Shown: piece after piece, positions 2,860-58,330 of the stretch
Layout: each line of letters begins with the position of its first letter
How positions within the stretch are numbered: the stretch's first letter is position 1
Source of the DNA: Halodesulfurarchaeum sp. HSR-GB
GTDB taxonomy: Archaea > Halobacteriota > Halobacteria > Halobacteriales > Halobacteriaceae
Direction: 5' to 3'
DNA length: 64,000 bases
NCBI RefSeq assembly: GCF_031432215.1
Contig: NZ_JAVKGN010000001.1
Coordinates: 1,665,421 to 1,729,420 of the forward strand
Position numbers and translations under genes: made by a program
The notes under the pieces: model-generated
Told to the model about the DNA's origin: nothing
Seen by the model: only the letters and a program-made list of their open reading frames with translations
The model's database searches: none

Positions 2860-5800
2860 CTATTTGTCTTTCCCGCTGAGTTGAAGCGTCACGCGAGTAT
2901 CAGGCGAGCGGCGCGTCTGAATCCAGCCGTAGATGAGGTAGGCCCCGCCGCCGATCAAGACGATCCAGAACAGTGGCGAGACCGTCTCGAAGCCCTCCGA
3001 GATCGGACCCAGCAGCACACCCGGCTGTAGGGTTTCGAGCAGGTACGTGACCGTCACGACTGCCGCCACGCCCATCAGCCAGGTCGGAATCGATTCCGAA
3101 GTGCGCTGGTCGAGATACCAGATCCCCAGGAGTGCGCCCACGCCTGCGATGATCGTGAGCAGCTCTCCGAAGGGTGCCGCTCCGGAACTTACCGCGGAGG
3201 TCGCGACTTGGAGGAGAGGCTCTGGCGTCGCAAACTCCATCGCAACGAGCGCGATGATGACCAGCCCGCCGATCACGATCGTCCTCGAGGTCGAGTCTCC
3301 GGTTCGGGAGTTCGTCGACTGGAGGGTCGGCAGCGACGGGAGCGACAGTGAGCGGTCGATGAACGGGATCGAGAGGCTGGAAGACCGGCCACGGCTGATT
3401 CGCGAACCGCCGACACTTCTGACGACCAGGAGCAGCCCACCGAGTGCCGCCACGACCGCGAGCAGGATCATTACGGGATCAGTCCCGGACTGCTCAGTCT
3501 CGACCGGGCCGACTGGCTGCTGAACGCTCGTACTTTCGGCGATGCCGATGATGTAGGTGGCTGCTTGGTCGATCGTTTCGAGATAGACCGGACTCTCGGC
3601 CGTGTCCGTGTCGATTTGCCGATCGTAGTCGCCGTCGACTCGACGCAGCTCGTAGGTCTCGCCGGAGACTGTATCAGCGTATTCGAGAGTCACCATGTCG
3701 CCCTCAGATTCACCGGGGCCAATCTCGAAGCGGGGCTCGCTTCCGGAGTCAACCGAAATCGCGACGTCGTTTTCCGGTTCGGCCCAGAGCGGAGCCTGTC
3801 GGAGTGTGGCTGTCGATCCAACGCCTGCCTCCGGGAATCTCACCGTTTGTGAGCCAGAGGCATCGATCAGCGAGGAGTCGTTCGCCTCAGACCAGGACTT
3901 CTCTTCGGCGTAGATCACACGATCGTCGTCGGCGCCCGAGACCAACATCTCGAACTCGGGTCGGTGCTCGGTGATCTCGATCTTCGAGTTCAGATCATCC
4001 GCTACCGGCGTGGGCTCCAAGACCTCGATCGCCCCGTTATCGACGGCCACTTTCGTCGCGTTAACCCGAACGTCGACCGTGTCGTTGGCCTGCATGTCCG
4101 GCAGCGAGATCTCGCCAGTCGTGTTCTCGACGACCCAGTTATCCGCCGCCTGCCAGTCGCCGCCGTTTTTACTATACTCGGCGTCTCGGATCGAGATCGC
4201 CGTGTCGGCGAATGGGATCGTCAGTGTCGGGTTCTGGCGATCACTCGAGTAGGTTTTGCTGACGGAGTACCGCTCGCTGAACTTCTCCGCGGAGTAGTCG
4301 ACATCCTGGTCGTCTTGGGCGTCGTGGCTGTAGTCAACCTCGACCTGCATCGGTGGGGCGTCGGCCGAGAGCTCCGGCGTCGAGACGTTGATCGTGTTTG
4401 TGCCAGATTGAAGTGTCTCTTTACTGAGGGTGGTCTGGACGGTCTCGCCATCGGCCAACGTACCGGTGTGATTGGCCCACTCCGCGCCGTTAAGTTCAAC
4501 ACCGGGGTCTTGCGTCTGGGTGACTTCGGTAAAGGACAGCGCAGCATTCGTGATAGAGGCATTTGCCGCAATCCCGAGGGTGTCGGTTGACGTTGTGAGG
4601 CCTGAGAGCGTTGCCGAGTCAGTACCGCCGCCAGGTACGTCAAGCGTTGTATCAACCGTCCCGTCGTCGTCCACGTCAAACTCTACTTTTGCCGGGCCGC
4701 CAACATCGTAGTAATCGAGATTGTCACTTGTATCCTGGTAGACGATCTCGGCCATCCCGTCACCGTCAATATCGCCCGTGGATACGGCGTGGGCATCCTG
4801 TCCCGTGTCCGTATTCGTCCCGGTGTCGACATCGTAGTAATCGAGATTGCTACTTGTATCTCGGTAGACGATCTCGGCCGTCCCGTCACCGTCAATATCG
4901 CCCGTGGATGCGGAGTAGGCATCTCCCCCCGTGTCCGTATTCGTCCCGGTGTCGACATCGTAGTAATCGAGATTGTCACTTGTATCCGGGTAGACGATCT
5001 CGGCCGTCCCGTCACCGTCAATATCGCCCGTGGATACGGAGTAGGTATTTTGCCCTGTGTCTGTATTCGTCCCGGTGTCGACATCGTAGTAATCGAGATT
5101 GTCACTTGTATCCGGGTAGACGATCTCGGCCGTCCCGTCACCGTCAATATCGCCCGTGGATACGGAGGAGGCACCCTGCCCTGTGTCCGTATTCGTCCCG
5201 GTGTCGACATCGTAGTAATGGAGATTGCTACTTGTATCCTGGTAGACGATCTCGGCCGTCCCGTCACCGTCAATATCGCCCGTGGATACGGAGTAGGCAT
5301 CCTCCCCCGTGTCCGTATTCGTCCCGGTGTCGACATCGTAGTAATCGAGATTGTTACTTGTATCCTGGTAGACGATCTCGGCCGTCCCGTCACCGTCAAT
5401 ATCGCCCGTGGATACGGAGGAGGCACCCTGCCCTGTGTCCGTATTCGTCCCGGTGTCGACATCGTAGTAATCGAGATTGCTACTTGTATCCTGGTAGACG
5501 ATCTCGGCCGTCCCGTCACCGTCAATATCGCCCGTGGATACGGAGTAGGAGGTATCCTGCCCTGTGTCTGTATTCGATAATGCCGGCGCGGAGGCGTTTA
5601 CAACCGCGTTTTGAACATTCGTACCACCGACGGAGATGGATTTTGTCCCAGTTGACTGCCACGAATAAGATTCATTTTCGGTGTTCTCCTTGCCCGTCAA
5701 GTTGACCACTGGATCGGAGGCTGCATCGAGGTCTGAAATGTCGTAATTGACCGAGCTGCCATCGGTGAACGTATCACCTATTTCGACAGATCCCGCAAAG

Positions 5801-6294
5801 CTGACCGTATTTGTCGAGAAGTGCGGGATCTCGACGATCAGCCAGCCATCTTCCCGCTCGATCTCCGAGTTCCACGGCGACCCGTCCTCATGAGTGCCGC
5901 GGGCCATTTCCGGCTGGTATCCCAGCGCGTCCTCGATCTCTGCGGCAGGGAGGGCGACCGATCGGCCTTCGCTGTGCTCGTCGTCGGTGATGACGATCGA
6001 GATCGGGCCGGAGCCATGAATCTCCCCGCCGTCGATCTTGTTTTTGGCTCTCCCAGGCGAGGTCACGACAACCTCGAGGGAGTCAGGATGCGCCGAGGAC
6101 ATCACACCCGCGTCGGCGATGTCTTGGGCTGACTGGCCCATCGGAGTCTGTTCGGGGAGGTCCGAGTAAACCTGCGAGTCGTCGACGGTCACGAAACCAC
6201 TCGGGGCCGCCGCTGCGCCACCGGCGAGCGCGACCGAGCCCGCGACGACTGAGAGGACCAGCAGCGCCGAGAGGAAAATCGCTCGGGCTTTCAT
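2860..6294 (-). CDS. Large exported membrane-anchored protein with seven FG-GAP/VCBS-type repeats
   Basis: 1144 aa from ATG 6294, which overlaps the upstream TGA (ATGA). Sec-type signal peptide at residues 1 to about 30 (MKARAIFLSALLVLSVVAGS, then an Ala-rich cleavage region). Seven 42-aa repeats at about residues 240-530 each carry STGDIDGDGTAEIVY, a DxDxDG calcium-binding pattern seen in FG-GAP and VCBS beta-propeller blades. These are followed by Ser/Thr/Asp-rich beta domains and about five C-terminal transmembrane helices (about residues 940-1130). Looks like an adhesin or spike-like surface protein. It is co-directional with the ATPase and membrane genes of the element. The repeat family assignment is firm; the role in a particle or vesicle is inference. 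Confidence 0.85.
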   Translation of the reverse strand: MKARAIFLSALLVLSVVAGSVALAGGAAAAPSGFVTVDDSQVYSDLPEQTPMGQSAQDIADAGVMSSAHPDSLEVVVTSPGRAKNKIDGGEIHGSGPISIVITDDEHSEGRSVALPAAEIEDALGYQPEMARGTHEDGSPWNSEIEREDGWLIVEIPHFSTNTVSFAGSVEIGDTFTDGSSVNYDISDLDAASDPVVNLTGKENTENESYSWQSTGTKSISVGGTNVQNAVVNASAPALSNTDTGQDTSYSVSTGDIDGDGTAEIVYQDTSSNLDYYDVDTGTNTDTGQGASSVSTGDIDGDGTAEIVYQDTSNNLDYYDVDTGTNTDTGEDAYSVSTGDIDGDGTAEIVYQDTSSNLHYYDVDTGTNTDTGQGASSVSTGDIDGDGTAEIVYPDTSDNLDYYDVDTGTNTDTGQNTYSVSTGDIDGDGTAEIVYPDTSDNLDYYDVDTGTNTDTGGDAYSASTGDIDGDGTAEIVYRDTSSNLDYYDVDTGTNTDTGQDAHAVSTGDIDGDGMAEIVYQDTSDNLDYYDVGGPAKVEFDVDDDGTVDTTLDVPGGGTDSATLSGLTTSTDTLGIAANASITNAALSFTEVTQTQDPGVELNGAEWANHTGTLADGETVQTTLSKETLQSGTNTINVSTPELSADAPPMQVEVDYSHDAQDDQDVDYSAEKFSERYSVSKTYSSDRQNPTLTIPFADTAISIRDAEYSKNGGDWQAADNWVVENTTGEISLPDMQANDTVDVRVNATKVAVDNGAIEVLEPTPVADDLNSKIEITEHRPEFEMLVSGADDDRVIYAEEKSWSEANDSSLIDASGSQTVRFPEAGVGSTATLRQAPLWAEPENDVAISVDSGSEPRFEIGPGESEGDMVTLEYADTVSGETYELRRVDGDYDRQIDTDTAESPVYLETIDQAATYIIGIAESTSVQQPVGPVETEQSGTDPVMILLAVVAALGGLLLVVRSVGGSRISRGRSSSLSIPFIDRSLSLPSLPTLQSTNSRTGDSTSRTIVIGGLVIIALVAMEFATPEPLLQVATSAVSSGAAPFGELLTIIAGVGALLGIWYLDQRTSESIPTWLMGVAAVVTVTYLLETLQPGVLLGPISEGFETVSPLFWIVLIGGGAYLIYGWIQTRRSPDTRVTLQLSGKDK
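4690..5573 (-). repeat. Seven tandem 126-bp coding repeats
   Basis: The landmark gtattcgtcccggtgtcgac recurs at exactly 126-bp intervals (for example 4811 and 4937), each unit encoding 42 aa. Units are nearly identical at the DNA level, so they arose by recent duplication or are homogenised by recombination. Not CRISPR: there are no unique spacers and the frame is open throughout. Confidence 0.95.
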
Positions 6295-6545
6295 AGCCAC
6301 ACCTCCGGCAGATGGCCGATGACTTCAGGAACGATCGTTCCGGTCGCCTGGCCGGCCATCTCTCGGACGAAGTCGCCCGCGCCGTCCATGGCCTGGTTTG
6401 TGTTCTGGATCATCGCCTGTACCATCTCCTGAACCATATTTCGAGCTCGCTCGAGGCCCTGCTTCGCCGCCTCTGGCGCGTTCGCGAGTGCCGTTCCGAT
6501 GGCATCGCCAGGACCGCTCGGCTGATTGGCTGGCACATCAGACAT
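6291..6545 (-). CDS. Small helical protein, 84 aa
   Basis: ATG at 6545 (MSDVPANQPS). After a Pro/Gly-rich N-terminus, residues 20-75 form an amphipathic helix with repeated Met, Gln and Ala (NMVQEMVQAMIQNTNQAM). The stop overlaps the start of the large repeat protein, so translation of the two is probably coupled. No family recognised. It might pack against membrane or form a coiled coil. Confidence 0.6.
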   Translation of the reverse strand: MSDVPANQPSGPGDAIGTALANAPEAAKQGLERARNMVQEMVQAMIQNTNQAMDGAGDFVREMAGQATGTIVPEVIGHLPEVWL

Positions 6546-6756
6546 CGGAATCACCCCGTGCCCGCGAGCGCTCCCACGCACACGGGGGCACCCCCGCCTG
6601 TGTGAGTCGAGATACGCGCGCGTGTGAGGGTCGAGAGTTTCCGGAGCTCGACCGGCGGTTTTCCGGCTCTGAACCCCAGGGTCGATGCGGCCGATCGTGG
6701 TCGAAGTTTTTTCTTTTTTCTTTTGTTTTCATGATCGATTTGTTCGTGGAGTTCAT
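6538..6756 (-). CDS. Possible basic 72-aa protein
   Basis: The ATG at 6756 overlaps the ATPase stop (ATGA), and its stop overlaps the next start by eight bases, which is the coupling pattern of neighbouring genes. Against it: the product is Arg/Ser/Pro-rich and basic, unlike other proteins here, and the DNA includes an A-rich run (6705-6730) and GC hairpins. It could instead be a spacer carrying a promoter or mRNA structure. Confidence 0.35.
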   Translation of the reverse strand: MNSTNKSIMKTKEKRKNFDHDRPHRPWGSEPENRRSSSGNSRPSHARVSRLTQAGVPPCAWERSRARGDSDV

Positions 6757-8111
6757 TTCGACCCCCCGAGAGCCCGCTGCCAGTCGAGAAAGTCGATCGA
6801 AACCTCTGCATCCAGCTCGATTTTTCCCTTTAAATCCATCCAAGTCACCGTCGCGAAGTTTGGCGCCTTCCAGATCTCGGCGCCGTCCTCGATCTTCCGC
6901 CGGGAGGTGATGTCGGCCTCGAGCGGACAACGGCGATCACCCGGGAGTTTCCGGCCGAGTGGCGGGGAGTTCCCGGGCATCGTCACTCGCCAGCGAATTT
7001 TTTGCCGAGCGAATTTGTGAATCTCTGAGAGGGCGTGGGCCTGATAGGCGAAGGTCACGCCCTTCTTTCGGGCGTCGGCGTACTTGTCCCGGAACCAGCG
7101 AATCTTCTGGTAGTGCTGGTGAACGTCCTTCGAGGCGTCAGCGTCCAGGATGTTGCCCGCCTCGTCGAGATTGATGAATGTCGGGTGGGGGAACGTGTCG
7201 CCGCTGATCCGGTGGGCGATGAACGCGAACCACCACTGGTCGGCGTCAGTCGGCTCATCCGGGCCGTCCTCGCCTTTCGGAGTTACCTGGCGGTAGTTCC
7301 AGTAGTTGAAGTGCGAGACTTCCTCGGCACCGCGATGAAGCGGGTCGGGGAACACCACGTAGAACTGACCAGGTATCAGCTGGTCGGTGAGGTCCTGGAT
7401 GGACTCGTAGCGAATCACATCACGGGCGATCGTCTCGATATCCACCTCGAAGGGCTGAATCGAGACATCCTCCGGGACGATCCGGACACGAGTGTCCAGG
7501 CCTGCAGGGATTGCCAGCGTCGCAAATGGCGCGAAGGGCAGCCATTCAGTCCGCTCGTTCGTCCCGGACTCGTCGACTGTCTCCGCCCAGATCACCGTCT
7601 CGTTGTTGACCTCCATCCGCCAGGCTGCGAGCGAGAGCGCGAGCGAGCTCTTCCCGCCGCCCGGTTCGCCGTGCATCAGGAAGTCCGTCCCCTTCACTGC
7701 CCGAATCGCCTGGGCTCGTGAGGGGTCGTCAGCCAACCACTCGAACACCTTTGCCCGTTCGGGGTGGTAGCGTTCGAGCGCCTCGTGAGACGGGTGTGGG
7801 TCCCGGAAGTCGTAGTCGACTTCGCCGGCAAGTTGTCGGAGAAGCGTGCGGTCGCGATCCGTGGTGTAGAGCAGCGGGTCGACGAACGCCTGCGGGAATC
7901 GGGCCACGCTGGCGCCATGTCGGTCGGCCTTCGCGAGCCACTTGTGGAACGGCGGGTAGCTGTACCGTTTCCGGATGTGCTGCCCGTCGTTGTGGTTCTG
8001 GGCTTCCGGATCGCCGATCGCTTGGGCCGAAGTCTCGTGTGGCTCGGTGACTCGCTCGAGCTGCTGGCGGATCTCGTCTTGGCTATCCGCTTGCGTGCCG
8101 ATCACGCTCAT
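6753..8111 (-). CDS. P-loop ATPase of the HerA/FtsK or Zot type
   Basis: 452 aa, ATG at 8111 overlapping the upstream TGA. Walker A GEPGGGKS at residues 148-155 and a Walker B-like FINLDEAGN at about 312-320, followed by an Arg/Lys-rich segment (about 325-375) as in translocating ATPases. The N-terminal 130 residues are specific to this protein. Such ATPases pump DNA or power virion or pilus assembly. With the surrounding membrane genes it is a good candidate for the motor of a DNA transfer or virion/vesicle-forming apparatus. The ATPase fold is clear; the exact subfamily is not. Confidence 0.8.
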   Translation of the reverse strand: MSVIGTQADSQDEIRQQLERVTEPHETSAQAIGDPEAQNHNDGQHIRKRYSYPPFHKWLAKADRHGASVARFPQAFVDPLLYTTDRDRTLLRQLAGEVDYDFRDPHPSHEALERYHPERAKVFEWLADDPSRAQAIRAVKGTDFLMHGEPGGGKSSLALSLAAWRMEVNNETVIWAETVDESGTNERTEWLPFAPFATLAIPAGLDTRVRIVPEDVSIQPFEVDIETIARDVIRYESIQDLTDQLIPGQFYVVFPDPLHRGAEEVSHFNYWNYRQVTPKGEDGPDEPTDADQWWFAFIAHRISGDTFPHPTFINLDEAGNILDADASKDVHQHYQKIRWFRDKYADARKKGVTFAYQAHALSEIHKFARQKIRWRVTMPGNSPPLGRKLPGDRRCPLEADITSRRKIEDGAEIWKAPNFATVTWMDLKGKIELDAEVSIDFLDWQRALGGSK

Positions 8112-8923
8112 CGTCCCACCTCCCACGAGGGGGCATCGCCGATCTCATCGCCAGCTGTATCGGCTTCCTCGCCAGCCCGGCCAGCCAGGTCACGCACCCC
8201 ACGATTGAACGCGGGGAGGAGGAGTTTCGCAGCCAGCCACTCTCGAGCCCGCGTGTGAGTGTCGTCTGATCGAGTGAGCATCGCGGTGTTCGAGGTCTCC
8301 GGGAGCACGTCTGCCGCCACGCCCTCGGTGTAGAGCCGAGTCGCGAATCCACCAGGGAGATCCGGCTGGACGGGCTCGCCGTGGGTCGCCAACTGAAGGC
8401 GTTCGCCCCAGTTGAGAACGTCCGCCGGTTCGTCGAAGCCATCGAGGAACGCCTCGAGGACTCCTTCCTGGTCGCGATCGATCTCGTCGATCGCCGGGCG
8501 CATCGCGATATACCGCATCCGGCTCACGTCTTGGGCCTCTTTTGTCTCGCCGACGTAGCTGCCAGCATCCTTTCGGAGCTGTCTGAGTGCCCGGTGGAAC
8601 GCCGGGAGCACCGACCACGCCCAGAAGTACCGCCGCACTTCCTGGCTATCGTAGGCCGTGTCGGGCGCGGCATGATCGGCGAGCAGCGCCTCGAGGAACG
8701 GCCCTCGATCGTGGCCTGGCGTCGGTGGGAACTCCTCGGCGATCTGTTGATACCGACGCTGGGGGATCTCGCCACGGGTTCGGACTGTCAGGCGCTGGAA
8801 CCAGGCCAACGCCTCGCGAGGTGAGTCAAAGCCCGCTTCGAGCTCGGTGCGCATCTCCTGCACGTCGATCCGGAGTTTCCGGAGCGACGGGCGTCGGGAC
8901 TGTTGCACGTCGGTCTTACTCAT
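8108..8923 (-). CDS. Hypothetical soluble protein, 271 aa
   Basis: Begins MSKTDVQQSR. Helical and charged with no signal peptide or membrane segment. Overlaps the preceding gene by eight bases and the ATPase gene by four, so it is probably a cytoplasmic partner of the ATPase. A repeated pattern of Trp and Arg (WFQRL, YFWAWSVLPAFHRAL, LLLPAFNRGV) is visible. Two LPAF(H/N)R motifs about 140 residues apart hint at an internal duplication. No known family recognised. Confidence 0.7.
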   Translation of the reverse strand: MSKTDVQQSRRPSLRKLRIDVQEMRTELEAGFDSPREALAWFQRLTVRTRGEIPQRRYQQIAEEFPPTPGHDRGPFLEALLADHAAPDTAYDSQEVRRYFWAWSVLPAFHRALRQLRKDAGSYVGETKEAQDVSRMRYIAMRPAIDEIDRDQEGVLEAFLDGFDEPADVLNWGERLQLATHGEPVQPDLPGGFATRLYTEGVAADVLPETSNTAMLTRSDDTHTRAREWLAAKLLLPAFNRGVRDLAGRAGEEADTAGDEIGDAPSWEVGR

Positions 8924-17135: not shown

Positions 17136-18707
17136 ATGGATCGCCGATCGATAATAGTCATCTCCCTCACGGTGCTCGTAATGTTATCAGGATGTTCGAC
17201 ATTAGGGCTTGGGGGTCCTACTATTACGGAATCCGAGACAGGAGTCACATCTGATGGGATACCGTATTTAGAATTCGAGTATACTACTGACGATTACGCG
17301 ACTGCACTATTAGAAAATCCAGAAAACCAGATTGTGGACAAACGAGAGCTATCCCCTGAGGAAAACAGATCTGCCCTTGCAATAGGTGAACCTCAATCAG
17401 GATCGTACACCCTAGTCCTGCAACAAGGTGGGGAAACTCAGGTGGAGAAAAATCTCGATTATGATGGACCATCGCCGCAAATTGAAAGCGTAGACCCGAA
17501 ATGGACAGGGTCTACATTGAAGGAAATTTCAATCACTGTGTCCAACTCGGGAGATCTTCCTACTCGTGTTTCTGCAGCTTCATACTCATCGGTTGGTGAA
17601 ACAGTTGAAGATGACTCGATGTACGAATGGGTCGAAGCAAACAGCAGTAACACAATCACCCTAACAAGTGGGTACCAAGAGGCAGTCCGCGTTGAGGAGC
17701 CAGGCGACGCAACGGTTTCAGTTCAGTTGGAAACAACCAACAAAACGCTATCAACATCGTTTACGAAATCATTTGAAGGGCCAAATTTGGAAATTGAATC
17801 TGTCAACCCAAACTGGGAAGGTGGCGACCTTGACAGTGCAGAGGTATTAGTTGAAAATATTGGAGATATGTCGACAATAGCAAACGCCTCGATAGAGCAC
17901 AATGGCGAGACCTTAGCATACAGTGGAAACTCTTCAATTGGCGCAGGAGAGTCTGCTCTGATGGAGATAACAAGCCTAGGAAATATCTACTATGCCGAAA
18001 ACGCGGGGGACGTCAATCTTGATTTGATTGTGGACGGGGAATCTCAACACCTTAGCCGAACGATTTCACACAAAGTACAGGACGCTAACGTTTCCATTTC
18101 ATCATTTTTGACCAGTTGGGGTAATGGAGAACTGAATAGTGCCACAGCTGAAGTCACCAATAACGGTGAAGTTGATGGTGATGTCAGAGTTAGTATTCTT
18201 GTCGATGGCACTGAAGTTAGTGGGTATGATACCGTCGTAAAAGCGGGGGATTCGCGGTCTTTCGATTTCGATAGTTATGACACACTATATTCTGCCACAT
18301 CAGGGGGTACTTATGACGTTACTTTTGAAGTAAGCGGGGTAGATGGGGACGATTCAAAGACCCGATCGAAAACATTTGATGGCCTTGATACATCTATTTC
18401 CAGTATAGATTCTTCGTTTACTGGGAATTATGACTCTGAAACTTCAGACCTTCTATCTCTGAACTTTAACGTTCGGAATCGTGGCGATGTTGTCTTGGTG
18501 TACGATGCGATCGAAGTGGAAATTGGTTCAGATTCTACACAGGAGTCATTATCTTTTGCTTCAGAAGTAGCACCAGGAGGATCAAAGACCGAATACTTTC
18601 ATGGAGATCTAACTGTAGATAACGGAGAGTACACAATGACAGTAACACTGCTAAACGATGGCGAAGAAGTAGGATCTGCGCAAACCTCAGTTTCGGTATC
18701 CGGGTAG
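17136..18707 (+). CDS. Lipoprotein with repeated Ig-like (CARDB-type) domains
   Basis: 523 aa. Signal sequence with lipobox LSGC at residues 18-21 marks it for lipid anchoring at the outer face of the membrane. The rest consists of four or so repeats of a beta-sandwich with the pattern W-x-G..L.S..V.V.N.GD, like CARDB domains. The gene is clearly more AT-rich than its neighbours and uses A/T-ending codons. A TATA-like ATAATTTATT lies about 30 bp upstream. It is unlinked to other genes and probably cargo of the element. The substrate or partner is unknown. Confidence 0.75.
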   Translation: MDRRSIIVISLTVLVMLSGCSTLGLGGPTITESETGVTSDGIPYLEFEYTTDDYATALLENPENQIVDKRELSPEENRSALAIGEPQSGSYTLVLQQGGETQVEKNLDYDGPSPQIESVDPKWTGSTLKEISITVSNSGDLPTRVSAASYSSVGETVEDDSMYEWVEANSSNTITLTSGYQEAVRVEEPGDATVSVQLETTNKTLSTSFTKSFEGPNLEIESVNPNWEGGDLDSAEVLVENIGDMSTIANASIEHNGETLAYSGNSSIGAGESALMEITSLGNIYYAENAGDVNLDLIVDGESQHLSRTISHKVQDANVSISSFLTSWGNGELNSATAEVTNNGEVDGDVRVSILVDGTEVSGYDTVVKAGDSRSFDFDSYDTLYSATSGGTYDVTFEVSGVDGDDSKTRSKTFDGLDTSISSIDSSFTGNYDSETSDLLSLNFNVRNRGDVVLVYDAIEVEIGSDSTQESLSFASEVAPGGSKTEYFHGDLTVDNGEYTMTVTLLNDGEEVGSAQTSVSVSG

Positions 18708-18851
18708 CTCTCAAACAGATTTGAGGATTTGCTGGCCAGAGCTTTTGATTTCGACTCTTTGAAAAAAGGTGGGTGAAGGCATCCACGGGTCGGGTGGTCA
18801 GGCCCGACTCATCATTACCTGAGGGCGCCGGGTACTTATTGATAGTAACGT

Positions 18852-19121
18852 TCAGCCTCCGAAGTCTGATTCACTTAATTTCCCTTCCACCCACATTTTC
18901 CCTTTGTTTGTAATTTCATAGTATCCGTCGCCATCTCTTGTAACAAAATCGTGTTCAAGCAGTTCGTTTAGTCTGAGTTGGACGGTGGAATATCCAATTT
19001 CTTGCCCGTGTCGGTTGAGGTTTCTATACAGAGCTTTTGGCGGAAGCTCGAGGTCTTTCTCGTAGAGGAAATCTAGGATGACGGAATCACTCAATGTCAT
19101 CCACCTCGGCTTCGGTCGCAT
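18852..19121 (-). CDS. PhiH1-repressor-like winged-helix protein, 89 aa
   Basis: RPKPRWMTLSDSVILDFLYE, then ALYRNLNRHGQEIGYSTVQL and a wing ending GDGYYEITNKG. This arrangement (W-M-T..D..IL, helix-turn-helix, YYE.T.KG) is that of the haloarchaeal virus PhiH1 repressor family. ATG 19121 matches the family's usual start; ATG 19145 is possible. It diverges from the integrase operon across an inverted repeat, the layout of a lysogeny switch. Confidence 0.75.
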   Translation of the reverse strand: MRPKPRWMTLSDSVILDFLYEKDLELPPKALYRNLNRHGQEIGYSTVQLRLNELLEHDFVTRDGDGYYEITNKGKMWVEGKLSESDFGG

Positions 19122-19175
19122 TTCCTCGGATATCGAACTCTTCATTAATATTTCCGACTGGTGTGGTAGAATTGT

Positions 19176-19210
19176 AGGTCATCTAACCTCATAATTAGGT
19201 TGTATGGCCT
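19176..19210. promoter_or_regulatory. Inverted-repeat operator between repressor and integrase operon
   Basis: AGGTCATCTAACCT (19176-19189) and AGGTTGTATGGCCT (19197-19210) are inverted copies matching at 11 of 14 positions with a 7-bp spacer. A TATA-like CTATAAG follows at 19214-19220 for rightward transcription. The site lies between the divergent winged-helix gene and the integrase operon, as expected for the repressor's own binding site. Confidence 0.6.
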
Positions 19211-19358
19211 AAACTATAAGTCATTGGGCTCAAAATAGGCTGGTTAACGAAGGCACCCGCGGCTGGTCGTCGCGACGATGATCACTGTGAGAAGGTGCGG
19301 ACCCCGCTGGCTGTAACAGCGGGCCCGCGTGGGCCTTCGTGGAACCAGCACGAAAGCC

Positions 19359-19592
19359 ATGTGCGAATACGCGCGACGGGATGAAAAAATCCCGCATGCC
19401 GATGATGTATCGCTTCGGAAGCCGGACCGGAACCGGTCGAAACGAACGCTCGCCGGAAATGCCGAGCGACTGAGCCATATCGAGAGCGCGGTCCGGAAGT
19501 TCCGGAAGGGTCGATTGCCGACTTTTCCCCGTACCGTCACTCGATTCGAGGCACCGATGAATCACGTCGCCACCAAAGGTGATCTCGCATGA
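19359..19592 (+). CDS. Hypothetical basic protein, 77 aa
   Basis: Begins MCEYARRDEK; GTG 19329 is an alternative start. Rich in Arg and Lys, unlike most haloarchaeal proteins, so either DNA-binding or partly spurious. Support comes from the ATGA overlap with the next gene and its place at the head of the integrase operon. Confidence 0.4.
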   Translation: MCEYARRDEKIPHADDVSLRKPDRNRSKRTLAGNAERLSHIESAVRKFRKGRLPTFPRTVTRFEAPMNHVATKGDLA

Positions 19593-19837
19593 GCGTGTGG
19601 GAGTCACCCGACGAGGCCACTTGGTGCCCGCAGTGCCAGCGCGAGCGTATAAACTGCGCGCACATGCACGAGGAACAAGCCGTCGCGACGGACGGCGGCC
19701 AGGACCTCGGCCGTCACTGGGATTGCGAGGACCATCTCGAGGCCGCGCTTGAGAAGACCGAGAGCAGCGCGGTCCGGAAACACATCCGCGAGGCGCTGCA
19801 GATGCCCGCGATCCAGCGAGAAGAGGTGGAGCGATGA
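19589..19837 (+). CDS. Small zinc-finger-like protein, 82 aa
   Basis: Residues 13-26 read CPQCQRERINCAHMH, giving CxxC plus Cys and His ligands; DCEDHLEAAL follows at about 45. Coupled to neighbours by ATGA overlaps on both sides. Likely a small DNA-binding or protein-binding accessory of the integration operon. Confidence 0.6.
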   Translation: MSVWESPDEATWCPQCQRERINCAHMHEEQAVATDGGQDLGRHWDCEDHLEAALEKTESSAVRKHIREALQMPAIQREEVER

Positions 19838-20136
19838 GTATCTCTACTGACCCGCTCGCGATCACCTACGACGACACCGTCGAGGACCTCTGCCAACGCA
19901 TTACGGAGTATCTCGGACTGGAAATGTACGACTACACCCGTCTGGATGCGAGTGTCGTCAAACCCATGGCCGATCGACTCGGTGTCGATTCCTCCGGGTA
20001 CCGTCGGGAAGTGGTGATTCGGATTCGAAGCGAACACCCAGAACTCGACGAGTCCCGATCACTTCCCGAATTCTCTATTCCCGAGCTTCGCGAGCTGTAC
20101 GCCAGCCTCGAACGGGGTGAGACGTTCGATGAGTGA
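19834..20136 (+). CDS. Hypothetical 100-aa protein
   Basis: Begins MSISTDPLAI. Mostly helical and acidic (TVEDLCQRITEYLGLEMYDY, then PELRELYASLE). No metal site. Overlaps both neighbours; the following gene starts eight bases before its stop. Not recognised. Confidence 0.6.
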   Translation: MSISTDPLAITYDDTVEDLCQRITEYLGLEMYDYTRLDASVVKPMADRLGVDSSGYRREVVIRIRSEHPELDESRSLPEFSIPELRELYASLERGETFDE

Positions 20137-20233
20137 GGCCGAACTCACCCAGTCGGAGATCGAGCAGATCGAGGCCGATCCGTTCCTCACCGTCGAGGAT
20201 GTCCTGGAGTGGCGCAGCGAGGGCGAGGCATGA
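20129..20233 (+). CDS. 34-aa acidic mini-protein
   Basis: ATG 20129 to TGA 20233. The product is a single predicted amphipathic acidic helix pair (LTQSEIEQIEADPFLTVEDV). It overlaps the stop upstream by eight bases and the start downstream by four, so coupling supports it despite its size. Confidence 0.5.
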   Translation: MSEAELTQSEIEQIEADPFLTVEDVLEWRSEGEA

Positions 20234-20373
20234 GTCTGGGGAACGATCCCGACCGGGTCGGTCCGCAGACCGAACCCGAACCCTACGACTGCCGGTTCTG
20301 TGACCGGAAAACCTACGATGCCCGGCGGATCTGCCCGGACTGTCGTCACGAGGGGGTTCTGGAGTATGAATAG
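20230..20373 (+). CDS. 47-aa zinc-ribbon mini-protein
   Basis: ATG 20230 to TAG 20373. Contains CRFC at residues 21-24 and CPDC at 35-38, with His next to the second pair, a complete CxxC-x10-CxxC zinc ribbon. Overlaps the next gene by eight bases. Probably a transcription or recombination accessory. Confidence 0.65.
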   Translation: MSLGNDPDRVGPQTEPEPYDCRFCDRKTYDARRICPDCRHEGVLEYE

Positions 20374-20560
20374 CGGGCCGCCCACCTGCTGGCGGTGTGG
20401 GTTCCGGCCGCTTGTGAATCCAGGGGAGAACCTTCACCGGCTCGGCGTGACGATCGACGGCGAAGACTGGCCGGAGATCCACGTCTGCGAGGACTGCGCC
20501 AAAGAGCTCTCCGCAGAACTCGGAGCGCTGCACCTGTACGACAAGGTGACCGAGGCGTGA
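20366..20560 (+). CDS. 64-aa zinc-ribbon protein
   Basis: Begins MNSGPPTCWRCGFRPL. CWRC at residues 8-11 and CEDC at 41-44 form a second four-Cys zinc ribbon. Its stop overlaps the GTG start of the integrase (GTGA), so it is translated together with the recombinase and may act as its directionality or accessory factor, by position. Confidence 0.65.
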   Translation: MNSGPPTCWRCGFRPLVNPGENLHRLGVTIDGEDWPEIHVCEDCAKELSAELGALHLYDKVTEA

Positions 20561-21627
20561 GTCGCGAGCGACCCTCACCCAAGGAACTCTCTCCGAAGGA
20601 CGCGATCGAGCGGTACCTTCGTCGTCGACGGCCCGATTCGACCGACCGGAGTATCCAGGGCTGGAAGTACCGGCTCAAGCTGTTTCGTGAGTGGCTCGAC
20701 GAGGTCGGGATCGAGGAGGTTGGCGAGCTGCGTCGCTACGATCTCGACGAATACTACGAACATCGGAGTGCCGAGATCAAGCCCGTCACACTCGAGGGCG
20801 AGATGTGGACGCTACACGGCTTCGTTTCGTTCCTCGAGGACATCGGCGCCGTCGAAGACGGGCTGGCCGACTCGGTTCGGATTCCGGACCTCGACCCCGA
20901 GGATCGATCCAGCGACATCAAGCTACACGCGGACGCGGCGCTCGCGCTGTTGGATTACTACCGGAACAACGAGACGCTGTATGGAACCCGACGGCATGCG
21001 TTTTTCGAGCTCCTCTGGCATACCGGCGCCAGGCAGGGCGGCATCCGAGGGCTTGATCTCCAGGACGTCGAGCTGCAAGACGACCCGACGGTGAACTTTC
21101 GACACCGGCCGGGGAGTGGGACTCCATTGAAGAACAAACGGGCGGGCGAGCGGCCTGTCGGGATCTCCGAGACCGTCGCCGACGTGCTTCGAACCTACGT
21201 TCGGGTCCACCGGCACAAGAAGGTCGACGATCACCAGAGATCGCCATTTCTCACGACGACTCGAGGGAGGCCGTCGCCTCAGACGCTTCGGGCCTGGAGT
21301 TACCGGGTCACGATTCCCTGCGAGCATCACCCGTGTCCCCACAGTCGGTCGCGGGACACCTGCCCGTTTGTCGACTACCACAAGGCCTCGCAGTGTCCAT
21401 CGAGCCGGTCACCGCATCAGATCCGGACGGGCGCGATTACCTGGATGCTGAACCGTGGTTGGCCGCCCGAAGACGTCGCTGCACGGGTGAACGCCTCAGT
21501 TGAGACCATCGAACAGCACTACGACAAAGCCGACCTCGATCAGCGGCGGAAACGACAGCGCCAGCGGATGGAAAAGCGCCGTCGCCCCCTGCTCGATCAG
21601 CTCCAAAACAAGGAGGAAAACCAATGA
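20557..21627 (+). CDS. Tyrosine recombinase (integrase), 356 aa
   Basis: GTG start at 20557 overlapping the upstream TGA; the long frame before it is not coding. An N-terminal SAM-like core-binding domain covers residues 13-110 and a catalytic domain 125-330. Catalytic residues visible are R159 (GARQGG), H287 and R290 (HQIR) and the nucleophile Y322 (EQHYDK). An insertion at 254-281 carries four Cys and several His, a probable zinc finger inside the catalytic domain. It integrates and excises the element whose operon it terminates. The last 70 residues recur as a decayed copy at 26.4 kb. Confidence 0.93.
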   Translation: MSRERPSPKELSPKDAIERYLRRRRPDSTDRSIQGWKYRLKLFREWLDEVGIEEVGELRRYDLDEYYEHRSAEIKPVTLEGEMWTLHGFVSFLEDIGAVEDGLADSVRIPDLDPEDRSSDIKLHADAALALLDYYRNNETLYGTRRHAFFELLWHTGARQGGIRGLDLQDVELQDDPTVNFRHRPGSGTPLKNKRAGERPVGISETVADVLRTYVRVHRHKKVDDHQRSPFLTTTRGRPSPQTLRAWSYRVTIPCEHHPCPHSRSRDTCPFVDYHKASQCPSSRSPHQIRTGAITWMLNRGWPPEDVAARVNASVETIEQHYDKADLDQRRKRQRQRMEKRRRPLLDQLQNKEENQ

Positions 21628-26404: not shown

Positions 26405-26611
26405 TCTGTTATACTGACGGGCGGAATTAATCACCTGGGGGTTGAACCTTGCTGGCCGCTGGAAAACGTCGCTACGCGCGTGAACGTCTCGGTTGAAACC
26501 AACGAACCGCACTCCGACAAAGTCGACCCCGACCAGCGACGGCAACGACTCCGCCATCGAATGGAAAAGCGGCGTCGGCCGTTGCTCGATCAGCTCAAAA
26601 ACAACGCGTAA
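26405..26611 (+). pseudogene. Remnant of an integrase C-terminus
   Basis: The frame ending at 26611 reads ...VATRVNVSVETNEPHSDKVD and then RMEKRRRPLLDQLKN. It aligns with residues about 287-352 of the integrase at 20557 with roughly two-thirds identity and no upstream part. The active-site Tyr is replaced (EQHYDK has become EPHSDK) and the HxxR motif is gone, so it is inactive. It marks the right end of an older related insertion. Confidence 0.8.
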
Positions 26612-50524: not shown

Positions 50525-51889
50525 TTAGTTATTCTGGTCCGAGCTCTCATCCTCACAGCCACACGCCACGCCGCCACAGACCAGCAGCCCGACGGGGTTG
50601 TCCCAGCCGGAGCCACCTGCTTGCGCGTTCTCAACCTCGGCGACGAGCGTGTGTTCGCCGGCAGTAATTTCCTTTTCGAAGGTTTCCAGGGCCTTGAAGC
50701 CCTTGTCCGGGTCGGAACTCGGGCCAGTGATCTCGCCAAGTTCCTCTTCATCGAGGTAGAATGTCGCGGTGTTGTCGGTCGCGGCATCGAACTTGAGCTT
50801 GCAGGGCCCATCGCCGGCTGGGGTCTCCTGCAGATCGACTTCGAAGTCCGTCTCGAAGATGTAGGTCCCCTGCGGATCCTGATCCCCGTTCGCGTCAGTG
50901 TTTCCGTCGTCCGGCGGCGCGATCCAGGCACACTCATCGGACGGCTCGATCCACTCTGCATGAGGCGTCTGGACCATAGCCGTACCAGGCTGTGGGCCAT
51001 CAGTGATCTCCCAGCCACCGTCGCCCGTGTTCAGACCGATGTCACGCGGCGCACAGCCCTGGTTGTGTCGGCACTGCTCGGTGTAAAAGCCCAGGTCGAA
51101 CTCGAGGGTGTCCCCCTGGATGACGTTCCCGACCGTTTCGGGAATCCACCAGCGAACGCCGATACAGTGCTGTTCATCACCCTCGAAGCAGGTGCGGGAG
51201 GCGGCACCGGCCGGAATGTTCCAGCCGTTGAGCCCGTCCCCGCTTAGCACGATCATGCCATCCTCGTACGCGAGTTCCTCCTTCGCCTGCGCGAGCGTGA
51301 CTGGTTCCTCATGGACGCCATCCCCTTCGCCGAGGATCACAGGTTCTCCATCATTGAACTCGTTGTTGCAGTCCGATTCCTTCCAGATTTCGAGGTAGAG
51401 GTTCTCGGCAAGTTCGCCTTCGTCCGGTTCCGGCTCTGGTTCCGGTGTCTCGCCGGGTCCCTGTGCAATGTTCTCCAGAGTCATCCAGAGGTATCCTGGG
51501 TTATCACACAGGTGCAGGCTGAACGTGATCTCACCCTCGTCGCCAGGTTTGACGTCGTCGAGTTCGACAAGGTGCTCTTGGTCGCCAAACACACCCTCGG
51601 GAAGGTCGTTACCGCTCTCAAGGTCGCTACACTCGAAGTTCATCCCTTCACCGTTCCCCTCGGGGTAGGCGTTGACCAGCTCCGTTCCGTTCGGGCCAGT
51701 GTAGGTCTGCCGCCAGTCGACTTTGAGGTCGAGTTCGCCGGCCGTGATCGTGTTACCCTCGAACGTTTCCGTATCACTGAACCAAGCGCTCGTTCCCAGT
51801 CCCGCCCCGGCGGAGGCGGCACCGATGGTACCTAACGCGGCGAGTGTCTTTCGCCGCGAAATCTCGAACGTGTTGTTTTCCTCTGACAT
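50525..51889 (-). CDS. SipW-signal surface protein A with C-terminal jelly-roll-like domain
   Basis: 454 aa from ATG 51889. The signal EISRRKTLAALGTIGAASAG, then LGTSAWFSDTETF, is the SipW-dependent type. Scaffold parts follow: NTITAGELDLKVDW, LDDVKPGDEGEITFSLHLCD, and near the usual C-terminus FDLGFYTEQCRHN. Unlike its paralogues it continues for about 155 residues with a beta-rich domain of carbohydrate-binding or PA14/jelly-roll appearance (GTYIFETDFEVDL, ATFYLDEEELGEI, ending CGGVACGCEDESS). TasA-like surface or matrix subunits are known from this signal type; role here inferred. Confidence 0.85.
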   Translation of the reverse strand: MSEENNTFEISRRKTLAALGTIGAASAGAGLGTSAWFSDTETFEGNTITAGELDLKVDWRQTYTGPNGTELVNAYPEGNGEGMNFECSDLESGNDLPEGVFGDQEHLVELDDVKPGDEGEITFSLHLCDNPGYLWMTLENIAQGPGETPEPEPEPDEGELAENLYLEIWKESDCNNEFNDGEPVILGEGDGVHEEPVTLAQAKEELAYEDGMIVLSGDGLNGWNIPAGAASRTCFEGDEQHCIGVRWWIPETVGNVIQGDTLEFDLGFYTEQCRHNQGCAPRDIGLNTGDGGWEITDGPQPGTAMVQTPHAEWIEPSDECAWIAPPDDGNTDANGDQDPQGTYIFETDFEVDLQETPAGDGPCKLKFDAATDNTATFYLDEEELGEITGPSSDPDKGFKALETFEKEITAGEHTLVAEVENAQAGGSGWDNPVGLLVCGGVACGCEDESSDQNN

Positions 51890-51920
51890 GGTTTGCATCA
51901 CCCGGGCGGTGTTCCACCCC

Positions 51921-51938
51921 AGGTGTCCACTCACACCT
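51921..51938 (-). promoter_or_regulatory. Leader hairpin of array gene A
   Basis: AGGTGT-GAGTGG-ACACCT (minus strand) has a perfect 6-bp stem located 32 bp ahead of the ATG. Related stems occur before genes C and D, suggesting a shared 5' UTR structure. Confidence 0.45.
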
Positions 51939-51952
51939 ACAGCGTGGGAGTC

Positions 51953-51962
51953 CTTTGCAAAG
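51953..51962. promoter_or_regulatory. Array box A (CTTTGCAAAG)
   Basis: Perfect 10-bp palindrome 64 bp upstream of the ATG of gene A, followed on the distal side by GTTATTC-type repeats (minus-strand CGTTATTCTCCGTTATTCGG). Copies at the same spacing precede four other array genes. A shared operator or unusual TATA/BRE element. Confidence 0.7.
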
Positions 51963-52151
51963 TGCCGAATAACGGAGAATAACGTGCCAGTAGCCAGGTT
52001 TTGAGGAGCGATAACGGTTTTTGAGGGGTGGATAATGAGGAAAATTAGAAAACAACGGCGAGATTTGACGTGACCGGTTTGGGTAGGGGATGGGTGGGTT
52101 CGATCACGTCCGTACCGTTGTAGTCAACCGCCCGGAAGGGAACGGGTTCGA

Positions 52152-52177
52152 AAACCACGCTGGGGACAGCGTGGTTT
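52152..52177 (-). terminator. Stem-loop after array gene B
   Basis: AAACCACGCT-GTCCCC-AGCGTGGTTT on the transcript strand, a perfect 10-bp stem beginning nine bases past the stop. A transcript-end or mRNA-stabilising hairpin; a similar CCACGC/GCGTGG stem follows gene C, and a decayed one follows gene D. Confidence 0.65.
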
Positions 52178-52185
52178 CGGGTCGA

Positions 52186-54000
52186 TCAGGCCTCGTTCTC
52201 GTTCTCCATGCCCGCACCGTCGTTGTGGCGGGCCTGTTCGGTGTAGAAGCCCAGATCGAATTCGACGGCGTCGGTCTGGATCTCGTTGCCGACTTCGGGT
52301 GGCACGTACCACGCGAATCCGATGTAGTGGTTCACACCCGGGACGAACGTGTCGCGATCGTCGCTTGCCGGCTCGCCACCGATCTCATCGAACGGCGTGG
52401 CACGATTCCCGTCCAGCGGAATGCCGTTGCCGGAACTGAGCGCTGCGAGATCGCCGCCGAGGGTTCCACGGTGGAAGACTTCGCCACAGAACTTGCCCGA
52501 AGTCATGTCACCGTAGTCGTAATCGTAGGCCTCGTCCCCCACCTGCATGGGGTAGCTCTCGATGATACTCCCATCAGTCCGGTCGATGGTGACGATCGCG
52601 TCGTTCTCACGATCGGAACCGACCAGTTGACCCGTTCCACTCCCTCGGATCGCGAGCCCAGTGATGGTCTCGGTGAAGTCACCAATGTTGGCCTCGTCCA
52701 CTGGCTCAGCGGTCGTGTCACTTGCCGGGTCATCGACCTTGTAGAGGCCGGCTTCGTCAGTCGCAGCCGTCCAGATGTACATCGTGCCGTCCGCGGCGAA
52801 CACGAGGTCCGCACCCTGGATATCGATCCCGGTGTCGCCCATCGCAGTCATCGACGGGCCAGACGGATCGATCGTGTACAGGTTGTCGTCGTCCTGAGAC
52901 GCTGCCCAGAGTGTTCCGGATGGGGAATGTCCAGCGAGGACGATTCCATCAGTTGCCCCGTCGACCTCACCCAGATCATCGAAGGCATCAGAACCGATGT
53001 CATACCGCCCGAGGTGGTGTGAGCTCTTGTCGAAGAAGAGGATGGCATCACCATTGAGCGTCGCCGCGATTGCGTCAGTCTGGTTGAAGTTGCCCGTATC
53101 GTCCTCGTAGAGCTCAACTAGCTCGGCGTTGCCCTCCGTCAGGGTGACTTCAAAGAGCCTCGTCGAGGTATCCGAACCACTGACACTGTCGGTGAGGTAG
53201 AGCGTTTCTTCGCCGCAGTCCTGAATGACGTTGTCCCCGCGCGCGTCGTACCACCAAACAGTCTTGATGGCGTCGGCCAATTCGATGTCCGCTCCGTCCG
53301 TGTTGTTTTGCATTGACCCACCAGTCTCACCGTCCGCCTCAGCCTCGGGCTCAGTCGTGTCGTTTTCCCACCATGTGACGTTCCCCGCCTGCATCCACAG
53401 GTATCCGGGGTTGTCACACAGATGAAGGCTGAAGGTGAGTTCGCCGAAGTCACCCGGCTTGACGTCGTCCAGGGCGATGAGAGGCTTGTACTCTCCTGCC
53501 TCCTCGTCGTACGTATCCCCATTGTCAGTCCGAAGAGCGTTCGCAATCTTGGGGTCGAGGTCTTCCGGCGTATCCGCACCCATTGAACAGGGATCGTAGG
53601 TCCACGAACCGTCCATCTGGTCGTACTCCATTTCCTGAATCCCGTCACCATCTGGGTCGGGGAACGCCTCCAGGGCTGTCGCGTCCATGAACTCACCCAA
53701 CGAATCACGAGGGACCCACACCTGGGGATCCTCCGGATCGGGCAGCGCAACGTTGTCTCCCTCCGAAGGCTCGCTGTAGGAAACGAACTCACCACCACTA
53801 CTGCCGTCGTAGTAGTGCTCCTCCCAGTCGACCTTGAGGTCGAGTTCGCCGGCCGTGATCGTGTTACCCTCGAATGTTTCCGTATCACTAAACCAAGCGC
53901 TTGTTCCCAGTCCCGCCCCTGCGGAGGCGGCACCGATGGTACCTAATGCGGCGAGTGTCTTTCGCCGCGAAATCTCGAACGTGTTGTTTTCATCTGACAT
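52186..54000 (-). CDS. SipW-signal surface protein B with beta-propeller-like insert
   Basis: 604 aa from ATG 54000 (MSDENNTFEI). Same signal and scaffold as its neighbours (KPGDFGELTFSLHLCDNPGY; FDLGFYTEQARHNDGAG). Between the second scaffold block and the C-terminal one lies a 280-residue insert with repeated strands of propeller type (DAILFFDKSSHHLGRYDIGS, DNLYTIDPSGPSM, GTMYIWTAATDEAGLYKVDD, ...TGLAIRGSGTGQLVG). Surface-exposed; ligand unknown. Confidence 0.85.
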   Translation of the reverse strand: MSDENNTFEISRRKTLAALGTIGAASAGAGLGTSAWFSDTETFEGNTITAGELDLKVDWEEHYYDGSSGGEFVSYSEPSEGDNVALPDPEDPQVWVPRDSLGEFMDATALEAFPDPDGDGIQEMEYDQMDGSWTYDPCSMGADTPEDLDPKIANALRTDNGDTYDEEAGEYKPLIALDDVKPGDFGELTFSLHLCDNPGYLWMQAGNVTWWENDTTEPEAEADGETGGSMQNNTDGADIELADAIKTVWWYDARGDNVIQDCGEETLYLTDSVSGSDTSTRLFEVTLTEGNAELVELYEDDTGNFNQTDAIAATLNGDAILFFDKSSHHLGRYDIGSDAFDDLGEVDGATDGIVLAGHSPSGTLWAASQDDDNLYTIDPSGPSMTAMGDTGIDIQGADLVFAADGTMYIWTAATDEAGLYKVDDPASDTTAEPVDEANIGDFTETITGLAIRGSGTGQLVGSDRENDAIVTIDRTDGSIIESYPMQVGDEAYDYDYGDMTSGKFCGEVFHRGTLGGDLAALSSGNGIPLDGNRATPFDEIGGEPASDDRDTFVPGVNHYIGFAWYVPPEVGNEIQTDAVEFDLGFYTEQARHNDGAGMENENEA

Positions 54001-54065
54001 GGTTTGCATCACCCGGGGCCCAAATCGGCCACCGAGTGAACAGGTACACCATGGGAAGCCTCCAC

Positions 54066-54075
54066 CTTTGCAAAG
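54066..54075. promoter_or_regulatory. Array box B (CTTTGCAAAG)
   Basis: Same 10-bp palindrome 66 bp from the ATG of gene B, followed by GGCCGAATAACGGCGAATAACG, which matches the distal repeats of box A almost exactly. Confidence 0.7.
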
Positions 54076-54262
54076 GGCCGAATAACGGCGAATAACGTGC
54101 TGGTAGACGCGTTTCGTGGGAGCTAACGACTCGTTAGTCGAGGTTCAGGACGAGTCCAAATAAGCTAAAATCTGGACGTGACCGGCCTGGGTAGGGATGG
54201 GTGGGGTTCGCCACGTCCGTGCCGTTAAGTAAATCGGCAAGAACAGGAACAGAATTGAGGAA

Positions 54263-54282
54263 CCACGCTAGCTATGGCGTGG
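54263..54282 (-). terminator. Stem-loop after array gene C
   Basis: CCACGC (54263-54268) and GCGTGG (54277-54282) form a 6-bp stem 12 bases past the stop of gene C, the counterpart of the stronger stem after gene B. Confidence 0.5.
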
Positions 54283-54293
54283 ACTCCACTCGA

Positions 54294-55862: not shown

Positions 55863-55924
55863 TGTTCTCACACCCGGGCGGCTTGCCACCTCGGGTGTCC
55901 ACTCACACCTACAGTATGGGGGTC

Positions 55925-55934
55925 CTTTGCAAAG
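55925..55934. promoter_or_regulatory. Array box C (CTTTGCAAAG)
   Basis: Palindrome 63 bp upstream of gene C's ATG, with GGTGTCCACTCACACC (leader hairpin) between it and the gene. The distal part CGCCGAATTACACGGATAACG is a diverged copy of the array repeats. Confidence 0.7.
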
Positions 55935-56131
55935 CGCCGAATTACACGGATAACGAGGCGATAGGCAGGGTTTGATAGAGTCTAACGACTCGTTCTTCGG
56001 AAGCTACTGACAAATCTGAAACCAAAGTACAACGAGGCCGCTAGGGGACCAGCCCAGGATCGGAGATGGGTGGCCTTGGTCACGTCCTAGCCGTCGTGAT
56101 CAATCGATCGGAAAAACCAATTACAAAACCA

Positions 56132-56145
56132 CGCTGGGTACAGCG
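56132..56145 (-). terminator. Decayed stem-loop that would follow array gene D
   Basis: CGCTG-GGTA-CAGCG within CAAAACCACGCTGGGTACAG matches the left arm and loop region of the stem after gene B, but lies 124 bp from gene D's stop. The hairpin cassette at 56162-56265 separates the two, so the terminator was probably displaced by an insertion. Confidence 0.45.
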
Positions 56146-56161
56146 CGAATCTAAGTTGGGT

Positions 56162-56265
56162 GAACCACCTCGGGATCAAGTGGTTCGAGAGACCGAAGGT
56201 CTCTCGTCATCCCGAAAGACTCCGTCTTCCGGCGACCCCGAGACACTCGGCCTGCTCAGCCTGTA
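56162..56265 (+). repeat. Hairpin cassette resembling an IS200/IS605 right end (relic)
   Basis: Consecutive stems: GAACCAC/GTGGTTC (56162-56186), the perfect 9-bp CGAGAGACC-GAA-GGTCTCTCG (56186-56206), GAAAGAC/GTCTTCC, CCGAG/CTCGG and GGCCT/AGGCC. The string GTGGTTCGAGAGA...TCTCTCGTCATC reappears, inverted, in the TnpB element at about 58419-58450. No TnpB accompanies it. Confidence 0.6.
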
Positions 56266-56268
56266 GGC

Positions 56269-58152: not shown

Positions 58153-58215
58153 TGTACGTACACCCAGGCAGTTTTCCCACCCCGGGTGTCCACTCTCACC
58201 TACACCGTGGGAGAC

Positions 58216-58225: not shown

Positions 58226-58330
58226 GGCCGGATTACGGGGATAACGAGTGGATATGTGTAGGTTTGAGGAGGATTTACATCGATCCGCCCCCCTAAAAAC
58301 TGGCCAAAGACGGCTCGATACGAGTCGCTC

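Follow-up and report, generated by a model that had tools for sequence, protein, structure and literature searches.

Repressor, operator and promoter form a known kind of switch in the haloarchaeal viruses PhiH1 and PhiCh1, and the locus analyzed here carries this part of the switch in a new element. The PhiH1 record annotates two opposing transcript starts as mapped: T6, from repR, falls on the start codon of that gene (34430), and T4, the early lytic one, lies 126 bp away at 34556. The record also has T5, a second early start at 34722, with 8 bp between it and the first annotated gene. At its 5' end T4 reads GACGAAGG..., and these bases open a three-way-junction fold that is closed by a 16-bp helix and is more stable than shuffled sequences (z = -4.96). 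For SNJ2 the corresponding stretch of the record annotates CDS features only and no leader. Riboswitch-like leaders with mutually exclusive helices are a known kind of regulatory RNA. Few natural cis-regulatory RNAs are known from Archaea, and in the open-licence literature that was searched none has been described for lysogeny in archaeal viruses.

The window, i.e. the whole 64-kb stretch of DNA under study, comes from a host genome of 2.25 Mb, and the features of its switch region are listed in Table 1. A sequence-only reading had proposed a winged-helix repressor of the PhiH1 type at this place, and this is borne out by matches to phrog_2440 (1.1e-18), to the winged-helix family PF08461 (above the Pfam cut-off), to the “PhiH1-like repressor” of HRPV-9 (35% identity, 4e-8) and to PDB entry 3b73, “PhiH1 repressor-like protein” (8.8e-6 over residues 1-82); PhiCh1 RepR is matched at 27% identity (4e-3). 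Judged by its sequence, the protein is thus a small winged-helix protein with kinship to PhiH1-type repressors. NCBIfam gave no name above its cut-off for either the repressor or the first ORF on the opposite side, and a scan of named genomes with the repressor returned two short matches only, both in bacterial MAGs. As listed, the repressor ORF covers 18852-19145 on the minus strand. The start at 19145 assumed earlier is probably 8 codons too long, and ATG 19121 is probably the true start, since the MRPRP start of close relatives aligns with it and the PDB match runs from residue 1 of the 89-aa form. This ATG is probably also the point at which the repressor transcript begins, without a leader, with a TATA candidate that aligns by eye with TTAA in the relatives. 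The repressor had also been described as diverging from an integrase operon; the divergent layout is supported, but several short and partly overlapping co-directional ORFs (19359-20560) come first on that side, ahead of the integrase.

Table 1 Features of the predicted switch region (positions in the window).
Feature	Position	Strand or frame	Basis
PhiH1-type winged-helix repressor, 89 aa from probable start ATG 19121	18852-19121	-	Profile, PDB, relatives
Probable TATA box of leaderless repressor transcript	19144-19152	-	Sequence; 23-31 bp before ATG 19121
Distal operator box (predicted) AGGTCATCTAACCT	19176-19189	16-bp frame 19175-19190	Read from sequence
Proximal operator box (predicted) AGGTTGTATGGCCT	19197-19210	16-bp frame TAGGTTGTATGGCCTA 19196-19211	Adjoins TATA
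TATA box of integrase-side promoter, TATAA	19215-19219	+	Sequence; AT peak across loci
Conserved structured leader RNA, model R1, 115.5 bits	19246-19399	+	Window is founding member
P1 5' strand ACGAAGGC	19247-19254	+	Window fold; aligned pairs
P2 hairpin, window fold	19258-19289 (19258-19272 / 19276-19289)	+	Aligned P2 pairs
P3 hairpin	19297-19328 (19297-19309 / 19317-19328)	+	Fold and alignment
P1 3' strand, common to alternative helix P4	19333-19340	+	Alignment
P4 alternative hairpin	19332-19358 (19332-19341 with 19349-19358)	+	Inverted repeat I7; compensatory changes
P5 hairpin CGGGAT/ATCCCG in first codons	19377-19394	+	Alignment
First ORF after leader, 77 aa, no family match	19359-19592	+	ORF list, profile scans
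Short co-directional ORFs between leader and integrase	19589-20560	+	ORF list
Tyrosine integrase (ORF open from 20395)	20539-21627	+	PF00589 5e-10; phrog_1 4.4e-29

The pair of 14-bp operator boxes proposed earlier was found at the positions given in Table 1, between the divergent winged-helix gene and the integrase-side genes, 21 bp apart with a 7-bp spacer, and the TATA-like sequence said to lie immediately downstream is indeed there. In the window the motif AGGTN6RCCT occurs at just two places, which are the two boxes, and this count is at chance level (3 matches on both strands against 2.77 expected), whereas the 2.25-Mb genome as a whole contains the spaced pair at a single place and the backwards-read control nowhere. 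Since single boxes are found at chance frequency, we rely on the unique spaced pair and on the register of such symmetry across loci. The best palindrome of the window is centred between the boxes and barely stands out from dinucleotide shuffles (p = 0.045); counted from the RNA start, the symmetry is 7/8 at -52.5 and 5/8 at both -42 (proximal box) and -63 (distal box).

For comparison 71 distinct upstream regions, 62 of them non-redundant and the loci not fully independent, were aligned on the start of the leader RNA described below. Among the 62, symmetry of at least 6/8 was found in 18 loci at -42 to -39 and in 14 at -54 to -51, with 0-6 loci in the other 4-bp bins; at -66 to -63, the expected place of a second operator, it was found in 6 loci, equally many as at -46 to -43. 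Shuffling gave a palindrome with p <= 0.05 in 15 of the 71 upstream regions, while a more distal control region gave 5 of 71; the test says little about most individual loci (median p 0.27, n = 71). The AT fraction of the 71 loci peaks at 0.83-0.99 between -30 and -26, which is the TATA box. In most of the close repressor relatives (L002-L017) a palindrome of the TAGCGTAAATACGCTA type precedes, by eye, a box resembling CTATAAGT, and TAGGTTGTATGGCCTA of the window occupies the same register as their TAGCGTAAATACGCTA. This comparison across loci is stronger operator support than the palindrome of the window itself, and the symmetry register of the 62 loci speaks for both the two-part operator and its placement against the TATA box. 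At the window the predicted palindromic operators abut the early promoter, and it is likely from these sequence comparisons that the repressor controls the integrase-side promoter through them.

The distance between the two opposing starts is close to constant. From the repressor start codon to the RNA start the median is 125 bp, the middle half being 124-126, in 40 loci (37 genome loci plus the window, HRPV-9 and Halfgib1). The window has 125 bp when counted to its predicted start site, SNJ2 has 126 bp, and PhiCh1 has 124 bp to the P1 start; in Harhisp1, BJ1, Humcor1 and HHPV4 the distance varies with the choice of start and comes to 116-168 bp. The window thus has the divergent layout with a fixed distance between starts of a PhiH1-type switch, with its own RNA start being a prediction.

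What the sequence-only reading had missed is a conserved structured leader RNA, which begins at about 19246, the predicted transcription start. The region 19225-19365 folds better than its shuffles (z = -4.04, 1/200 as good), and a DNA search found similar leader DNA in 40 of 293 genomes of the order. Thirty of these loci, the window included, were aligned with HRPV-9 to give the covariance model R1, so that the window's own match is by construction. R1 has matches in 130 of the 293 sampled genomes (E <= 1e-4), with at least 10 in the richest genome and a single one in the host genome of the window, and it also matches HRPV-9 (152 bits, a member of the model), Halfgib1 and SNJ2 (97 bits). Across the phylum 33 of 294 genomes were matched (E <= 1e-3), all but one in the order of the window; the lone match outside it is weak (9e-4). 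HHPV4, Harhisp1, PhiCh1, BJ1 and Humcor1 contain no sequence that R1 matches convincingly, and the record of LSV-48N begins close to the repressor. Rfam contains no family that reached its gathering threshold, neither in 18700-20600 (best 18.9 bits against 65) nor in four other sources, and an exact DNA pattern of the leader was found zero times in viral_contigs, which says little as the pattern is strict. The leader is a conserved RNA of unrelated haloarchaeal elements for which no description was found in the open-licence literature that was searched; one may exist in the early PhiH papers (Stolt and Zillig; Ken and Hackett; Iro). A hammerhead-type ribozyme was considered and dropped, the core motif being absent from the junction by eye.

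The context of the leader was examined in 43 loci, consisting of the window, HRPV-9, Halfgib1 and 40 genome loci, of which 20 had the best RNA scores and 20 were successive entries from the middle of the score list, with one per genome in each set; many of the best-scoring loci are also founding members of R1. A divergent upstream match to the repressor HMM (E <= 1e-3) is present in 37 of the 40 genome loci and in 40 of 43 with the references, or in 39 of 43 if L122, which lies outside the position window of the tally, is left out. The weakest of the 37 is L131 (7.9e-4), and at L130, L111 and L112 the divergent ORF is a different small one whose winged-helix matches stay under the Pfam cut-offs. 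In the reverse direction R1 was found (E <= 1e-3) within the 1.5-kb flanks of 20 of the 30 top repressor loci. A co-directional integrase lies downstream in 34 of the 43 loci; two of the remaining nine, L098 and L102, are short stretches that stop at the end of a contig. The proteins encoded directly after the leader vary from 24 to 211 aa in 30 loci.

Outside the switch region a remnant of an integrase 3' end (26416-26604, 80% identical to 21426-21611 of the intact gene) may mark an older integration or the boundary of the element. A link to pleolipoviruses through a putative NTPase (6753-8126) failed, as this ORF has neither a phage match by tblastn nor a Pfam match; the other pleolipovirus structural candidates in the window were scanned by Pfam and, in part, by PHROGs. 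Repeated sequence was seen at three further places: tandem near-identical repeats at 4703-5576, inside the gene (2860-6300) of a 1146-aa FG-GAP repeat protein; many similar stretches of about 68-92% identity along one strand of 51056-64000, probably a group of duplicated genes; and a 31-bp inverted match (96.8% identity) between the distant positions 148-178 and 19669-19699.

In the predicted fold of the leader, helices P1, P2 and P3 form a three-way junction. The ten bases that precede AUG 19359 are likewise complementary to the 3' strand of P1, and pairing between them would give the alternative helix P4. In the alignment of 43 sequences 94.4% of the P1-P3 cells are paired, compensatory double changes are present in 17 of 28 pairs, and on none of five measures did any of 500 shuffles score as high. 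This alignment was fitted to the R1 structure, so that the P1-P3 count leans to the model; in an unfitted alignment of 31 sequences 92.7% of cells are paired and 13 of 28 pairs have double changes, with 137 of 500 shuffles reaching the measure for further pair types. P4 lies outside the structure of the R1 model. It is paired in 87.3% of cells with 26 double-change cells in the 43 sequences, and 0/500 shuffles scored as high on four of the five measures, the count of further pair types being reached by 42 of 500 shuffles here and by 172 of 500 with the 31 sequences. In the unfitted alignment nine of ten P4 pairs have double changes, five of these in one sequence each. The covariation score of P4 on alignment A3 is 0.153, and one of the slid controls is higher (0.166 at -2). 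Both P1 and P4 thus carry compensatory changes as mutually exclusive helices, while some of the controls are weak. Two observations concern the junction itself: the leader at L105 (1318-1443) aligns without P2 and keeps P1, P3, P4 and P5, and GCGGACCC is frequently found in both the P2 and the P3 5' strand (alignment A2), which means that these strands could swap partners and form a rod, the best predicted fold for the leader of L113.

The balance between the two helices was estimated by forcing four pairs of each. The median over the 43 leaders is 1.9 kcal/mol in favour of P1 (range -4.2 to +9.5), with P1 favoured in 31, P4 in 11 and one tie, these being energies from ViennaRNA defaults at 37 C and not those of a haloarchaeal cytoplasm. 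The window is one of the 11, its P4 fold being predicted 4.1 kcal/mol more stable than P1, so that its resting state may be OFF. In a test of helix pairs against shuffles the P1/P4 arrangement was significant in PhiH1 (p 0.003), PhiCh1 (0.023) and Harhisp1 (0.003) and not significant in the window (0.28), BJ1 (0.29) and HHPV4 (0.07); the scores of HRPV-9 (0.95), Halfgib1 (0.29), SNJ2 (0.023) and Humcor1 (0.003) came from other pairings. More divergent leaders of similar layout are present in Harhisp1 (L136), BJ1 (L138), Humcor1 (L139), PhiCh1 (L137) and PhiH1 (L140); the layouts of Harhisp1, BJ1, Humcor1 and HHPV4 were judged by eye, by folding and by this partly significant test.

These data can be read in more than one way. 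Stems that stabilize a 5' end begin at the transcript start, and P1 lies at the predicted start site of the window and at the annotated T4 start of PhiH1. The leader could then be a static structure, there to shield the mRNA or to fix initiation, with the repressor as sole switch and P4 as a by-product of an ACGAA(A)GC repeat. The favoured energy of P1 in most leaders fits this, and so does the make-up of P4, which has 42 A-C mismatches, nearly all mid-helix, and not one G-U pair in the 43 sequences; this is not the pattern that a plain RNA helix would be expected to collect. Against such a static role, P4 has compensatory changes also at a pair outside P1 (columns 117-125; GC 18, AU 22), and it stands directly before the AUG throughout the R1 family. 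We regard the static structure as rather unlikely, although the A-C mismatches of P4 together with the second PhiH1 start T5 weigh in its favour and against a leader gating translation.

Translation as the target is suggested by the AUG after P4, which is invariant in all 43 R1 sequences and opens a frame of at least 57 codons in 26 of 30 loci. Substitution rates at codon positions 1, 2 and 3 behind it are 0.42, 0.38 and 0.37; the absence of a third-position excess speaks against a protein-coding constraint, and with such equal rates the constraint on the first codons looks like one on RNA. The same AUG argues against an effect on transcription, in which the leader would be an attenuator or, like the put RNA of phage HK022, an element by which nascent RNA promotes readthrough of a long operon. 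Its location at the very start of the early operon, the differing sequences of the first genes after it, the extension of the P5 hairpin past the AUG and the lack of an ATG at P4 in PhiH1 and PhiCh1 would all suit a transcriptional role, which we nevertheless consider unlikely. That conservation runs through the AUG into the first codons likewise disfavours a trans-acting small RNA released from the mRNA by cleavage. The compact conserved fold, the annotated PhiH1 cleavage product T4' and the antisense and processing events of PhiH reported in passages of PMC6210493 are what such an RNA would lead one to expect, and we give it a low probability. Finally, the leader might work as DNA, i.e. as a replication origin, an attachment site or a recombination hairpin, since it belongs to mobile elements and has integrases close by. 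SNJ2 does have a hairpin origin, which PMC13107129 places downstream of orf19, away from the leader. The attP of Halfgib1 lies at the end of its record, more than 1.3 kb from the RNA, and the register with the start site argues for RNA. A weak point in the same direction is that P1-P3 have more G-U pairs than A-C mismatches (47 against 35, with 20 of the 47 from one column pair), the reverse of P4. A role as DNA is very improbable.

On balance we lean, with little more than even confidence, towards a lysogeny-type switch with two layers, an element-specific repressor and a shared RNA leader that gates translation. In the first layer, which we infer from the comparison with other loci, the winged-helix protein would bind the two boxes directly upstream of the TATA box and keep the integrase-side operon off, giving each element its own immunity. 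In the second layer, the structure and conservation of which are seen in the alignments, departure of the repressor would allow transcription from about 19246 and so produce an mRNA with the three-way junction at its 5' end. If the 3' strand of P1 paired with its 5' partner the start region would be open, and if it paired as P4 the start region would be masked. The leader would most likely gate translation of the first gene and perhaps that of the operon. As the RNA is common to unrelated elements and their operators differ, the signal that it answers to is probably a state or factor of the host.

A wider reading, which we put forward tentatively and hold to be possible rather than probable, is that the leaders form a large and hitherto undescribed class of bistable regulatory RNAs of archaea, common to pleolipoviruses, integrated haloarchaeal elements and, in a more divergent form, tailed viruses, which read a host signal and decide on translation of the integration or lytic operon once repression is lifted, lysogeny then being set jointly by the element-specific repressor and the common RNA sensor. 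If the leader gates translation, one conserved RNA would precede the genes for integration or the lytic genes in many haloarchaeal elements that are unrelated to one another, among them SNJ2 and, in divergent form, the classic model PhiH1. The leader may also bear on the rigid spacing between the opposing starts, and it makes the host state that triggers induction directly testable; passages of PMC13107129 report a working genetic system for SNJ2.

Compared with riboswitch-like leaders, R1 has in common the strand used by both helices, the start codon beside the alternative helix and the similar predicted energies, and it differs in being without a known ligand or an Rfam match. PhiH1 resembles the window in its divergent winged-helix repressor, its start spacing and the three-way-junction fold at T4, whereas its operon leads to repH instead of an integrase and no ATG follows P4 directly; because of this and of the second start T5, start-codon masking as drawn would not apply to PhiH1. 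PhiCh1 shares the divergent winged-helix repressor and, with 124 bp, the spacing, but has neither an R1 match nor an ATG directly after P4. HRPV-9 differs in its intergenic sequence, which by eye has no AGGTN6RCCT pair, and agrees with the window in the gp05/gp04 region, where the repressor, the R1 RNA and a downstream integrase are all present and gp04 is annotated from the AUG of the leader. In SNJ2 (Betapleolipovirus) the recombination accessory proteins gp02 and gp03 precede the integrase, unlike in the window, and the order is otherwise the same: the gp04 repressor, 126 bp between the starts, the R1 RNA, and then gp03, gp02 and the integrase.
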